Below, piece by piece: positions 1,224 to 5,175 of a DNA stretch of 64,000 nt. The DNA is taken from positions 434,001 to 498,000 of the forward strand of contig NZ_JQLL01000001.1 of the NCBI RefSeq assembly GCF_000744185.1, in the 5' to 3' direction. Every line of letters starts with the position of its first letter. The stretch's first letter is position 1. The notes below the pieces were generated by a model. That model saw only the letters and a program-made list of their open reading frames with translations. It did no database searches and was not told the origin of the DNA. Position numbers and translations under genes: made by a program. The DNA comes from Carnobacterium funditum DSM 5970 (GTDB taxonomy: Bacteria; Bacillota; Bacilli; Lactobacillales; Carnobacteriaceae).

Positions 1224-1691
1224 CTAATGGTTTAAATCTCTTTTTTTCTCTTGTTCATCTAAAAATACGTACAAAATCATTAGTGCTACGCCAATGGATA
1301 ACGCCATATCAGCAACATTAAATATTGGGAAATCAATAAACTCCAAACGAATCATATCTACAACGTATCCTAAACGAATGCGATCTATCACATTACCTAT
1401 GGAACCTGCCAGAATAAACGATAAGGATAAGGATAGCAATCCACTTTGATGGCCATATTTTTGCAAATAATAAATGACCACGACAACAACAACAAATGTA
1501 ACGCTATAAAAAAACCACATTTGTCCTTCTAAGATACTCCATGCAGCACCTGTATTTTGTAGATACATCCATGATAAAATATTCGGAAAAACTTCTACCA
1601 CTTCATGTAAGTTTATATTTGCGACGGTCAAGTACTTTGTTAATTGGTCGATTCCTATAATCAAAAGAGCTAGAGCATAATATAAAAACAT
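1224..1691 (-). CDS. lspA: Lipoprotein signal peptidase (signal peptidase II)
   Basis: A 155-residue integral membrane aspartyl protease that cleaves prolipoproteins before the lipid-modified cysteine. Four hydrophobic segments are visible (about 3-22, 57-75, 84-103 and 124-144). Family motifs are present: QLTKY near the first segment, NTGAAWS, NVIDRIRLGYVVD with a catalytic Asp at 112, and FNVADMALSIG with the second Asp at 128. Its substrates would include the two lipoproteins encoded nearby at 2356-3883. It leads the lspA-rluD pair; an IR-rich intergenic region separates it from divergent plus-strand genes. Confidence 0.96.
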   Translation of the reverse strand: MFLYYALALLIIGIDQLTKYLTVANINLHEVVEVFPNILSWMYLQNTGAAWSILEGQMWFFYSVTFVVVVVVIYYLQKYGHQSGLLSLSLSFILAGSIGNVIDRIRLGYVVDMIRLEFIDFPIFNVADMALSIGVALMILYVFLDEQEKKRDLNH

Positions 1692-1862: not shown

Positions 1863-2102
1863 ATGAAAAAACCTATTATTGAAAAAGTTTGGCAAATCAA
1901 AGGTTTGCTATTTAAAAATGATGATTACCAATTTGCGCTAGATTTAGAAGATAGCGAAAATCGAGTGAAGATGCGTTATATTATTATCGAGTCCCATTCT
2001 GTTTCTTATCAAAACGATTTAGAAATTGGGTATAATCAAAAAGATTATTGTGTATTCATCAGTAAAGATGATGCTAAAAAAAGTTTGTATTCCATTGCAT
2101 AG
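1863..2102 (+). CDS. Small hypothetical protein
   Basis: 79 residues, not recognised. It has an excellent ribosome binding site (AAAGGAGATTATT before ATG), a candidate promoter and its own downstream terminator, so it is likely a real monocistronic gene. The protein is soluble-looking, mixed acidic and basic, with no signal peptide, membrane segment or cysteine pair. The alternating hydrophobic and polar residues in the first half (KVWQIKGLLF, YQFALDL, RYIIIESHS) suggest a small beta-sheet protein. It is divergent from lspA. No function can be assigned. Confidence 0.6.
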   Translation: MKKPIIEKVWQIKGLLFKNDDYQFALDLEDSENRVKMRYIIIESHSVSYQNDLEIGYNQKDYCVFISKDDAKKSLYSIA

Positions 2103-2238: not shown

Positions 2239-2266
2239 TTGGAAAAAGGCTGTCTTTTGATATAAT
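2239..2266 (+). promoter_or_regulatory. Promoter of the envelope-protein cassette
   Basis: TTGGAA and TATAAT, separated by 16 bases, about 90 bp upstream of the lipoprotein start at 2356. Confidence 0.6.
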
Positions 2267-2355: not shown

Positions 2356-2997
2356 ATGAAAAAACATGCTACAGCAGCTTATGTTATGACTGCAGCTTTC
2401 TTTTTAACTGGTTGTGCAAATGACGGAATTGTGGAGGCTTTAAAGAGTACTGAAACGATTGAACCGATTCAACAAACGATTGTTTCTGAAATAAATGCTG
2501 TTACAAAGCAAGAAAAGGGGTTACAAGAAACCTTCGAATTGGCTTTATCTAAGGAGCAAAAAACAAATCCATTTACGGATGAAAACTCGGCTGTATTCAA
2601 AAATATCGAAGAACGCAAAAATTCAGTTAAAACAATCAACGAATCAACAACTAAACTAAATACTACTCAAAAAAGTTTAGTTGAAAATGATGGTGACAAA
2701 CTACCTGAAGATACGATGAATTCTTTAACAGATAGTATGAAAGAATTAAGTACCTCTCTTAATGAATACACTAAACAATACAGCAAAAACCTAGTTGAAG
2801 AAGAAAAATACTTTAAGTCACTCGGTACAAAAGAAGCTACTTATCAAACACTAACTGATGGAATGACCACTGTTAATGAATTGGATACATCAAATAAAGA
2901 ACAATTAAAAAAATTAAATAAACAATTTAACCAATTAAACAAGTACCGTACAGAGGCTGAAAAAACATTAAACTCATTGTCAGACTCAACAAAATAA
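2356..2997 (+). CDS. YkyA-family putative cell-wall-binding lipoprotein
   Basis: 213 residues from the ATG at 2356, which has AAAAAAGGAGAT upstream; an in-frame extension back to 2275 lacks a binding site. The N-terminus is a lipoprotein signal with lipobox LTGC, placing the mature protein on the outer face of the membrane. The rest is hydrophilic, helical and rich in Lys, Glu, Asn and Thr, with heptad-like spacing that suggests a coiled coil. This resembles the YkyA family (PF10368), whose role is not established. It starts a three-gene plus-strand cassette with a polysaccharide deacetylase and a glycosidase-like protein, which points to envelope work. Confidence 0.75.
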   Translation: MKKHATAAYVMTAAFFLTGCANDGIVEALKSTETIEPIQQTIVSEINAVTKQEKGLQETFELALSKEQKTNPFTDENSAVFKNIEERKNSVKTINESTTKLNTTQKSLVENDGDKLPEDTMNSLTDSMKELSTSLNEYTKQYSKNLVEEEKYFKSLGTKEATYQTLTDGMTTVNELDTSNKEQLKKLNKQFNQLNKYRTEAEKTLNSLSDSTK

Positions 2998-3016
2998 CGA
3001 TTGGAGTGATAAAAAA

Positions 3017-3883
3017 ATGAAACAAGTAGTTTCAATTTGTGGAGTAACTTTAATCAGTGCTTTGCTTCTAAGTGCCTGTCAAACAAACGATCCAGTTGCT
3101 TCCGGAACAAAATCAGACACTTCCTCTCTTACTCAGTCTAGCGAAAGCGACTCGAGTGCGATGAACGTATCGAGTGAGAGTGATTCATCTGAAAAGGGAA
3201 CTGTAGCTGAAGAATCTCAATCTATAGAATATACCTATCAAGTCAATCCAGCTATTTTTACTATTGAACCAATGAACGAAGCAGATAATAAAAAAGTCGC
3301 TTTATTAACGTTTGATGATGCTCCTGATAAGCATGCAGTTGAGATTGCTAAAAAGTTAAAGTCTATTGATGCACCGGCTGTTTTTTTTATTAATGGTATG
3401 TATATAGAATCAGATGAAGGCAAAGAAATGCTGAAAGAAATATATGATATGGGATTCGAAATTGGGAATCATTCACAAACTCATGCAAACTTAAGTGCCA
3501 TTAGTCCAGAAGAACAACGCGAAGAAATAGTAAAAACAAATGAGTTGATTTATGAAACAATTGGAATAAAACCTCGTTTCTTTAGAGCTCCATTCGGAGT
3601 AAATACAGATACATCAGCAGAAATCATCGAACAAGAAAATATGGTATTTATGAATTGGACCTATGGTTATGATTGGGAAGCAGAATATCAAAATCCCCAA
3701 GCCTTAACGGATGTTATGTTACATACGGAATACTTAAACGAAGGAGCAAACTTATTGATGCATGATCGCTCTTGGACAAATGAAGCAGTTGTTGGTATTG
3801 CAGAAGGTCTGAGAGAAAAAGGATATACATTAATAGATCCAGCACTTATTCTATCGCCAGAAAGAGAGGAATCTACTAAATAA
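3017..3883 (+). CDS. Lipoprotein polysaccharide deacetylase (NodB domain)
   Basis: 288 residues. The signal peptide ends in lipobox LLSAC (Cys 21), followed by a Ser/Asp/Glu-rich linker to about residue 70. The NodB domain spans about 90-275 and has TFDDA at 98-102 (catalytic base and metal Asp), the metal-binding NHSQTH at 151-156, RAPFG at 190-194 and a late LLMHDRS histidine. Proteins of this type remove N-acetyl groups from peptidoglycan or another cell-surface polymer; which substrate is used here is not visible. It follows the YkyA-like gene by 19 bp and overlaps the next gene by one base, so the three are probably co-transcribed. Confidence 0.9.
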   Translation: MKQVVSICGVTLISALLLSACQTNDPVASGTKSDTSSLTQSSESDSSAMNVSSESDSSEKGTVAEESQSIEYTYQVNPAIFTIEPMNEADNKKVALLTFDDAPDKHAVEIAKKLKSIDAPAVFFINGMYIESDEGKEMLKEIYDMGFEIGNHSQTHANLSAISPEEQREEIVKTNELIYETIGIKPRFFRAPFGVNTDTSAEIIEQENMVFMNWTYGYDWEAEYQNPQALTDVMLHTEYLNEGANLLMHDRSWTNEAVVGIAEGLREKGYTLIDPALILSPEREESTK

Positions 3884-5094
3884 TGAATTACAATAAAATA
3901 ACAACTAGTCTCTTATTAAGTTTGTTACTACTTGTGTCTTTTCCCTTAATAACTCAAGCAGAGAAACCTGTTAAGAATCCATTAATTGAAATTAATAGCC
4001 TCCCTCTTTTAAGTATCCCGAAACAATTTCCTGCACAATTTGCTTATGATAGTGGAATTGAAATTGCTTATCCTGAAGATGGTGTCAAAGGGGTCTACCT
4101 AACAGCTTACTCTGCTGGTGCACCAAAAAGAATGGCGGAATTATCTGAATTCGTCACATCCAGTGGTTTAAATGCGATGGTTATTGATGTAAAAGATGAT
4201 ATTGGACATCTGACTATGGATGTCAAATCAGATAATAAACTCATTCAAGAAAGCACACAAAACTATGTATCCGATCCAGAATTAATGATGAAAAACTTAG
4301 AAAAAAATCAAATTTACCCTATTGCTCGAGTCGTTGTTTTTAAAGATACTTTGCTAGCAGAAGCTAAACCAGAATTATCTTTTAAACGTTCGGACGGCAG
4401 TGTTTGGAAAAACAGTAATGGTGATGCGTTTGTGAACCCCTTCTCCAAAGAAGTATGGGATTACAATATTGAAGTAGCCAAACAAGCAGCAAAAATGGGA
4501 TTTAAAGAAGTGCAGTTTGATTATGTTCGTTTTCCAGAAGGATTCGAAACTCAAAGCGATAGCTTAAGTTACACTCGTGGTGCTTATAAAGATAATGAGT
4601 TAGATGATGTGCAGCAACGTGTGGCTGCTGTGACGGACTTTGTTGAATATGCGCGTGAAGAACTACGCCCATACGGAGTCGAAGTTTCTGTAGATATTTT
4701 TGGTTATGCTGCTACGGTTCCAGAAGCTCCAGGAATTGGACAAAACTTCAGCAAAATTTCTGAAAATGTTGATGTGATTTCTTCGATGATTTATCCTAGT
4801 CATTGGGGGTCTTATTTTGGAATTGCAAAACCAGATTTAGAACCTTATAAATTGGTCCAAGAATACATGAAAGTTGAAAATAAATTATTAAGTACATTAA
4901 AAACGCCTCCTAAGTCAAGACCATGGTTGCAAGACTTTACTGCATCTTATCTAGGAGCTGGCAACTATATAAATTATGGTGCCCCTCAAGTATCTGATCA
5001 AGTTCGAGCATTACATGAAGCTGGCGTAAATGAGTTTCTATTATGGGATGCAAAAAACAGTTATACTCCAGGCGTAAATTACAACTTAAAATAA
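3883..5094 (+). CDS. DUF4015 putative glycoside hydrolase, secreted
   Basis: 403 residues. A signal peptide ends near TQA-E (about residue 26). The remainder matches the DUF4015/GH-like TIM-barrel family: GVKGVYLTAYSAG at the barrel start, NAMVIDVKDDIG, VQFDYVRFPEG and VSVDIFGYAA, with several acidic residues at strand ends as in glycosidases. Activity of the family is not firmly established. The start ATG shares one base with the preceding TAA, a translationally coupled arrangement. With the deacetylase it may act on the same surface polysaccharide (inference). A terminator follows. Confidence 0.85.
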   Translation: MNYNKITTSLLLSLLLLVSFPLITQAEKPVKNPLIEINSLPLLSIPKQFPAQFAYDSGIEIAYPEDGVKGVYLTAYSAGAPKRMAELSEFVTSSGLNAMVIDVKDDIGHLTMDVKSDNKLIQESTQNYVSDPELMMKNLEKNQIYPIARVVVFKDTLLAEAKPELSFKRSDGSVWKNSNGDAFVNPFSKEVWDYNIEVAKQAAKMGFKEVQFDYVRFPEGFETQSDSLSYTRGAYKDNELDDVQQRVAAVTDFVEYAREELRPYGVEVSVDIFGYAATVPEAPGIGQNFSKISENVDVISSMIYPSHWGSYFGIAKPDLEPYKLVQEYMKVENKLLSTLKTPPKSRPWLQDFTASYLGAGNYINYGAPQVSDQVRALHEAGVNEFLLWDAKNSYTPGVNYNLK

Positions 5095-5118
5095 AAAACT
5101 CTTTTTTATAAAAATAAT

Positions 5119-5166
5119 GGCTCCCTTCTTGTCTTATTGTATAGACGAAAAGGGAGCTTTTTTATT
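5119..5166 (+). terminator. Terminator between the envelope cassette and addA
   Basis: GCTCCCTT pairs with AAGGGAGC around a loop of about 22 bases, followed by a T run on the plus strand. The same hairpin could also stop minus-strand transcripts leaving addA, though its T run in that direction is weaker. Confidence 0.8.
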
Positions 5167-5175
5167 CTTTTTAGG

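Follow-up and report, generated by a model that had tools for sequence, protein, structure and literature searches.

What do a lipoprotein of the YkyA family, a deacetylase of the CE4 (NodB) type and a protein of the family DUF4015 do together? The three are encoded side by side in a 64,000-nucleotide stretch of the Carnobacterium funditum DSM 5970 genome (contig NZ_JQLL01000001.1, positions 434,001 to 498,000), which was analysed as a whole and is called the window here. A first-pass annotation had proposed that they form a small envelope-modifying system. This proposal is partly supported, with operon conservation, gene fusions and phylogenetic profiles speaking for it. We find that the cassette is genuine and forms a conserved functional module of the same kind as PdcF, a YkyA-family protein, and its partner deacetylase, and that DUF4015 is likely its core enzyme. 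Our reading, to which we give a probability of about one half, is that their products make up a single unit for glycan remodelling, held at the membrane, in which deacetylation is coupled to cutting on the wall.

The gene order and strand (YkyA, NodB, DUF4015) are as first described, according to the open reading frames (ORFs) and to Pfam matches over their cut-offs (Table 1). So are the 19-bp gap between the first two genes (2998-3016) and the 1-bp TAATG overlap of the last two at 3883. All three products would be exported, given the lipoboxes that we read in YkyA (LTGC, with the cysteine at residue 20) and in the deacetylase (LSAC), and the type-I-like signal peptide of DUF4015. The YkyA product had been called a coiled-coil lipoprotein. 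The lipoprotein part stands, and the coiled coil does so only in part: the AlphaFold2 model (mean predicted local distance difference test, pLDDT, 86.0) has helices at 19-65, 79-110, 118-156 and 163-212, a predicted four-helix bundle and not simply a coiled coil.

We surveyed relatives in 250 genomes drawn from the class, in 395 genomes drawn from the order, and in named genomes, where 79 loci with DUF4015 were kept from the best 80 of 238 stretches encoding a relative. The two draws share genomes and are not independent. In the order draw DUF4015 was counted in 107 genomes (115 genes), after dropping a partial 28.8-bit match (G444) and rows below the cut-off and counting two fragments in G260 as one gene. 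YkyA lies upstream, on the same strand and within 3 kb, of 108 of the 115 genes and in 106 of the 107 genomes, four of which were counted through below-cut-off YkyA matches. In the one genome left (G452), a divergent YkyA found by a custom hidden Markov model (HMM) is upstream of one of two DUF4015 copies. With both families held to their cut-offs, 102 genomes have both, 4 only YkyA, 5 only DUF4015 and 284 neither. The gap between the two measures 163-522 bases or 1.0-1.3 kb, apart from one of 2.4 kb behind a tandem copy, and a CE4 domain is found inside the wide gap in all 55 genomes that have one. Within the window's family, DUF4015 is present in 14 of 18 genomes and YkyA is over its cut-off in the same 14, with 1035-1160 bases between the domain matches. 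Co-occurrence of the three families, which had been suggested as a check, is seen across genomes, and co-location in relatives, whose lack had been named beforehand as one result that would refute the idea, is well beyond chance.

Among the 79 named-genome loci, 15 have the full trio, 8 have YkyA and DUF4015 without CE4, and 56 show no YkyA in the examined flank. YkyA and DUF4015 each occur in 78 genomes of the class draw, but only 43 have both over cut-off (odds ratio 4.8), and the tight gene pairing is therefore a feature of the window's order. Some relatives carry tandem DUF4015 copies (L184, 2138-4650; L035, 6333-9194). At G260:C2:1344376-1345375 DUF4015 is split over two frames, with YkyA and CE4 matches adjoining, which reflects either a sequencing error or decay. 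Three genomes of the family have no DUF4015 (L084-L086) and retain a gene of roughly 210 aa that weakly resembles YkyA; no match to the CE4 subfamily adjoins it.

The families are also fused. In 40 order loci (20 with wide gaps and 20 with short gaps or lone genes, chosen to include long open frames), we found YkyA joined to CE4 with DUF4015 adjoining in 8 and YkyA joined to DUF4015 in 5. Each type of fusion falls in two separate places of the DUF4015 tree, with local supports of 0.88-0.999 (L176 apart from the g132 clade, and the g133 clade apart from L196). These fusions in separate lineages bear on the idea that the neighbourhood is conserved by descent only, with no common function. That the genome counts are uncorrected for phylogeny speaks for this idea, but together with the fusions, the unlinked co-occurrence described below, the varied genomic contexts and a second adjacent YkyA-DUF4015 pair in a Geomicrobium-like genome make such an explanation highly improbable. 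In that genome (L087, L088, L089) YkyA and DUF4015 are present twice each; one YkyA gene adjoins one DUF4015 gene, and the remaining two lie apart.

We next consider the deacetylase, followed in the class with alignment A3 as probe and with bit thresholds placed at gaps in the tables (146 and 330 in the class, 183 in the order). In the class draw the CE4 subfamily of the cassette reaches at least 146 bits in 65 genomes, 64 of which have DUF4015; 14 genomes have DUF4015 without it and 171 have neither. A cut-off of E 1e-30 gives 72 CE4 genomes, of which 67 have DUF4015 and 5 do not. In the order draw DUF4015 accompanies 85 of the 86 CE4 genomes at 183 bits or more; at E 1e-25, 139 genomes match, and the 53 others, at 111 bits or below, were read as general CE4 proteins. 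Counted by genus (n = 106), both families occur in 37, CE4 only in 1 and DUF4015 only in 7. The profile holds also among YkyA-negative genomes. Hence the CE4 subfamily is almost never found without DUF4015, whereas DUF4015 can do without CE4: the cassette lacks CE4 in 52 of the 107 order genomes with DUF4015, and the subfamily is encoded elsewhere in 30 of these and nowhere in 22.

Unlinked cases are the more telling, as they argue for function rather than mere linkage. In Bacillaceae and kin, DUF4015 is often alone between opp genes and yjbC-spxA-mecA (among the matches listed; gene names read from sequences). The 25 class genomes with CE4 at 330 bits or more are exactly the 25, among the 72 of 78 DUF4015 genomes read, in which a DUF4015 gene was found to bear a segment ahead of the barrel, described below, and all 25 have YkyA; such high-scoring CE4 is found in none of the 35 class genomes with YkyA but without DUF4015. 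Outside the window's family, where DUF4015 is unlinked in these genomes, YkyA and this CE4 share a contig in 22 of 23, at a distance of 5.8-14.6 kb, and are on different contigs in the 23rd (G220). Reading 11 ykyA stretches, we found ykyA, pdhABCD and then the cassette CE4 subfamily in five (L251-L254, L259), all with a motif-type DUF4015; three of the five had been picked because the CE4 position was already known. The other six are without this CE4: four DUF4015-less, one Staphylococcus-like, and one DUF4015-less with another kind of CE4 beside its YkyA. YkyA stands directly beside a different CE4 type at L256 11479-13038 (G212, a 3-Mb genome with no DUF4015) and at L095 2513-4154 (G076, Paenibacillus-like). 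In a YkyA-negative genome, DUF4015 and CE4 matches are convergent and about 140 bases apart (G049:C1:2182337-2184548).

Judged by sequence, the cassette CE4 belongs to a distinct, lipidated CE4 subfamily. It scores 247-268 bits against three Bacillaceae members, 142 against a Paenibacillus-like one and at most 71 against the other CE4 proteins compared; the last group holds the CE4 genes of four other genomes, and the comparison drew on 30 of 33 listed loci, on L095 and on two further CE4 loci from the genome of the window. In B. atrophaeus its top match (268 bits) is the gene adjoining pdhD. It misses the NCBIfam equivalog cut-offs of PdaB (105.2 against 237.4, the best), PdaA (76.2 against 298) and the PgdA models (74-76 against 400-800). 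D100, D101, H152, H156, R190, P192, G194, D219 and H249 are invariant among 16 aligned homologues, and we take these to be the CE4 motif residues.

The closest described system is PdcF-PdaN. By genetics, PdcF acts with the peptidoglycan deacetylase PdaN: mutations in pdcF and in pdaN each suppress a sporulation mutant, the two genes together but neither alone impair growth of B. subtilis, and loss of pdcF raises lysozyme sensitivity (PMC12700454, 2025). The same work reports an AlphaFold-predicted PdcF-PdaN complex, some Bacilli in which a ykyA gene adjoins a deacetylase gene, and proteins in which YkyA is joined to a deacetylase or a DUF4015 domain. The link between YkyA and deacetylases is thus already in print; for YkyA and DUF4015, the work gives a fusion as an example, together with a prediction that the two interact. 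The three-gene unit and the dependence of CE4 on DUF4015 are not described in its accessible text. The first-pass annotation had also held that the pairing points to functions for both YkyA and DUF4015, and with the genetics of PdcF and PdaN the YkyA part is no longer fully open (PMC12700454). In both PdcF-PdaN (Bacillus anthracis) and the cassette, a YkyA-family four-helix lipoprotein goes with a secreted CE4 deacetylase, and the four long helices predicted for the window's YkyA match the fold stated for PdcF. The cassette differs in having DUF4015 as a third gene and constant partner, and its deacetylase is of the lipidated subfamily with TFDDAPD, which may set it apart from PdaN. Searches of the open PMC literature found no account of a DUF4015 enzyme or of the three-gene unit, and no paper that used the two family descriptions 'cell-wall binding lipoprotein' and 'polysaccharide deacetylase' together. 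What the present analysis adds is the near-obligate pairing of YkyA with DUF4015, the dependence of this CE4 subfamily on DUF4015, and Cwp19 and PgaB as the closest fold families of the DUF4015 model.

This model (57-sequence alignment, mean pLDDT 88.8, predicted template modelling score 0.85) is an eight-stranded barrel. Foldseek ranked 4s1a, a partial DUF4015-like structure, first, then PgaB and Cwp19. By VIA-align the closest solved fold is that of Cwp19 (GHL10; Z 27.5, 3.0 Å over 298 residues), followed by the GH153 domain of PgaB (Z 26.1, 3.5 Å over 316 residues) and BpsB (Z 23.9), and the best entry outside these three reaches 22.3. The model has the same barrel fold as GH153, but a shared fold is not family membership: a Pfam scan of the protein (E 10, HMMER filters on) returned only DUF4015 and a weak DUF4843, with no GH153 and no GHL10, and a profile search of the PDB to E 10 listed only 4s1a, with both families absent. 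This entry (Cthe_0052) is the only solved structure related to DUF4015 in sequence (profile E 9.9e-51) and has the same QFDYxRFP motif; it spans the barrel partly (query 74-309) and is named uncharacterised or hypothetical. Cwp19 is a peptidoglycan lytic transglycosylase of C. difficile (PMC6016235), and so, like the putative role of DUF4015, a secreted wall enzyme of a Gram-positive. It has 11% identity to DUF4015, which gives no GHL10 profile match; it carries CWB2 wall-binding repeats instead of YkyA, and the accessible text mentions no partner deacetylase (PMC6016235).

None of the DUF4015 sequences collected lacks the xxDYxRF motif (192 loci, some containing the same gene twice; 194 distinct stretches). 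Many charged residues are invariant, among them D213 at the end of strand 4, which is our candidate catalytic acid. In PgaB the probable catalytic D474 aligns with the catalytic aspartates of other families (PMC5933820), and D213 may be its counterpart, going by strand order. DUF4015 could instead be a non-catalytic glycan-binding barrel that steers the deacetylase along the strand. The PgaB barrel was itself first described as a PNAG (poly-N-acetylglucosamine) binding domain, with activity found later (PMC5933820), and the one paper found to name DUF4015 reports no activity in its accessible passages. So many invariant charged residues, D213 included, and the existence of DUF4015 without the CE4 subfamily make a purely steering role quite unlikely.

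PgaB is also a parallel for coupling: it joins a deacetylase to a hydrolase, its GH153 domain cuts deacetylated PNAG, and on polymer made in situ the hydrolase needs an active deacetylase domain (PMC5933820). In PgaB (E. coli, Bordetella), as would be the case here, a deacetylase is coupled to a TIM-barrel glycan cutter. The cassette differs in having two separate enzymes plus a YkyA scaffold, an identity of about 11% with no GH153 profile match, and no pga genes noticed beside it. The enzyme pair (CE4 lipoprotein and barrel) and the place of PgaB GH153 among the two closest fold families would suit a split Gram-positive counterpart that deacetylates and trims a secreted poly-N-acetylglucosamine-like exopolysaccharide. 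The neighbours speak another language: lspA, rluD and rexAB-like genes here, pdh or opp-spx in many Bacillaceae (among the matches listed; names read from sequences), and no polymer synthase was noticed among them, though no search aimed at poly-N-acetylglucosamine synthase genes was made. The DUF4015 sequence also falls short of the GH153 family, and its occurrence in 44 of 106 genera points to a general role in the wall, so we regard the split counterpart as unlikely. Peptidoglycan or another wall glycan seems a more likely substrate than a dedicated exopolysaccharide.

A membrane-held remodelling unit could work as follows. YkyA, as a lipidated four-helix bundle, would serve as scaffold and cofactor for two extracellular enzymes. 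The CE4 protein, itself lipidated, would strip N-acetyl groups from N-acetylglucosamine or N-acetylmuramic acid of the wall glycan, and the secreted DUF4015, held at the membrane by YkyA, would act as a lytic transglycosylase or a hydrolase and cut the strands where deacetylation directs it. The two steps would thereby be coupled in space and order. Physical contact in C. funditum, peptidoglycan as substrate, the bond that DUF4015 would cut and the coupling itself are parts of the model that we infer.

Where could YkyA bind? Directly N-terminal of the DUF4015 barrel we noticed the pattern P..(F/M)P..F.YDSG..I.YP, and composed a regular expression for it after the sequences had been seen. N-termini were read in 72 of the 78 class genomes with DUF4015, among them that of the window; the six left out (G023, G034, G074, G082, G166, G179) are YkyA-negative and have DUF4015 matches that are broken or weak. 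The expression finds the segment in 24 of 72 fetched genes, all in YkyA-positive genomes (43 of the 72 genes), and in none of the 29 genes from YkyA-negative genomes; the window's own copy matches too. An HMM of the segment (14 training sequences, from the window and trio loci) reaches at least 3 bits in 16 of the 43 YkyA-positive and none of the 29 YkyA-negative genes. A crude lipobox pattern marks 13 of these 29 as lipoprotein-like. G220 has two DUF4015 copies, the YkyA-adjacent one with the segment and the lone one without. In Staphylococcus, five loci (L074, L075, L077, L078, L080) have no YkyA beside DUF4015, which is lipidated and without the segment; in S. canis (L076) YkyA is adjacent, and DUF4015 has a form of the segment and no lipobox.

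The boldest reading is that DUF4015 is a new family of wall-glycan cutters (lytic transglycosylases or hydrolases) that works with a dedicated CE4 across Bacilli, that YkyA is a shared dock reached through the pre-barrel segment, and that in YkyA-less lineages DUF4015 is often self-lipidated instead; we hold this as possible but doubtful. We do not accept the motif as proof of docking. The expression is post hoc, the Paenibacillus-like genus g33 (13 genomes) has YkyA without the segment, and the YkyA-negative genera are mostly in other families than the motif-bearing ones, so that phylogeny confounds the comparison. That YkyA is a mere tether for an unanchored DUF4015 was rejected as the whole story. 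Several DUF4015 proteins that carry a lipobox or a membrane helix themselves retain both YkyA and the segment, and in all five Staphylococcus-like genomes of the class draw YkyA is present while DUF4015 is lipidated and lacks the segment, which also speaks against a simple tether.

Several points weigh against the membrane-held unit. To our knowledge, no activity has been measured for any DUF4015 protein. The fold match is broad: 997 of 1000 aligned chains reach Z 8, so only the Z margin of Cwp19 and PgaB is informative, and the Foldseek template modelling scores to these two are only about 0.55 by query length at 11-12% identity. DUF4015 is found without YkyA in 35 of the 78 class genomes, and without the CE4 subfamily in 14 of 78 class and 22 of 107 order genomes, so neither partner is strictly required. 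CE4 has its own lipobox and some lipidated or membrane-anchored DUF4015 proteins keep YkyA, so tethering alone would not explain the association. In the model of DUF4015 as a monomer, residues 51-70, which include the second half of the pre-barrel segment, already show good order (block means of 89 and 96), and the segment may therefore simply cap the barrel. Genome and profile counts are uncorrected for phylogeny, and the tables were known when the bit thresholds were chosen. Finally, the authors of the Cwp19 study suggest that this enzyme may not cut beside deacetylated N-acetylglucosamine (PMC6016235), the opposite of cutting where the strand is deacetylated.

A rival reading is a module without a complex, in which CE4 and DUF4015 act successively on the same glycan and YkyA serves, or positions, only one of them. 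The lipobox of the trio CE4, the 52 order genomes with YkyA-DUF4015 but no cassette CE4 (22 of them with no CE4 subfamily anywhere) and the persistence of the CE4-DUF4015 profile in YkyA-negative genomes all favour such an arrangement. Against it stand the fusions, with YkyA joined to CE4 in two lineages and to DUF4015 in another two, and the in vivo role of a YkyA protein as cofactor of a CE4 enzyme (PMC12700454). We see it as a serious minority possibility, and continue to prefer the single membrane-held unit.

A shared promoter and terminator had been claimed. The terminator is convincing: the fold of 5090-5168 reaches -24.7 kcal/mol (z -6.26), and 0 of 200 shuffles were as good, although a terminator scan with loop limit 3-8 omitted the hairpin 5119-5157. 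The promoter is only plausible, since the scan gave 26 sites against a shuffle mean of 32.6 and hence no enrichment; the window's upstream DNA gave no useful alignment with two relatives, in which promoter conservation could be seen. The upstream neighbours on the other strand are lspA and rluD, and those downstream, also on the other strand, are addA/rexA-like helicase-nuclease genes (names read from sequences). The lspA gene (lipoprotein signal peptidase; window 1224-1691, minus strand) is the divergent neighbour of ykyA, and an opposite-strand ORF of 151-167 aa takes its position in many order loci. Between lspA and ykyA is a 79-aa ORF (window 1863-2102, plus strand) with no significant family match, present in all five genomes of the genus, where the YkyA match follows some 0.4-0.6 kb downstream. 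The genome has 2.35 Mb and one DUF4015 gene, and its closest named relative among the matches listed is Carnobacterium jeotgali (74%). PADLOC gave no match at E 0.001.

Table 1. Features of the three-gene cassette, in window positions
Feature	Position	Strand	Basis
YkyA/PdcF-family lipoprotein, 213 aa, predicted four-helix bundle	2356..2997	+	PF10368, 68.2 bits (curated cut-off 28.8); AlphaFold2 model
CE4 (NodB) lipoprotein deacetylase, 288 aa; catalytic domain preceded by a Ser/acidic linker	3017..3883	+	PF01522 (Polysacc_deac_1), 102.2 bits (cut-off 23.1)
Secreted DUF4015 protein, 403 aa, putative glycoside hydrolase or lytic enzyme; TIM barrel starting near residue 68	3883..5094	+	PF13200, 395.4 bits (cut-off 27), profile 1-313 of 313
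Promoter-like site, extended -10 (TTGGAA-16-TATAAT), 5' of ykyA	2239..2266	+	consensus match 10/12
Segment ahead of the DUF4015 barrel (residues 42-64), candidate docking site for YkyA	4006..4074	+	regular expression
Codon of DUF4015 D213 (QFDYVRF, end of strand 4), candidate catalytic acid	4519..4521	+	invariant xxDYxRF motif
Intrinsic terminator of the operon	5119..5164 (hairpin 5119-5157 + T run)	+	fold of 5090-5168

DUF4015 is over its cut-off in 78 of 250 class genomes, yet only one paper of the open PMC literature searched uses its name. Now that it has a deacetylase as partner, a scaffold whose genetics are published and a fold like that of two glycan-cutting families, it becomes a concrete enzyme hypothesis, and co-occurrence in many Gram-positive bacteria gives two poorly known families, YkyA and DUF4015, testable roles. 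Wall deacetylation is mainly discussed as a matter of lysozyme resistance and autolysin control. If the membrane-held unit is real, the wall biology of Gram-positives would include a further step, cutting coupled to deacetylation, and YkyA would gain a second class of client.

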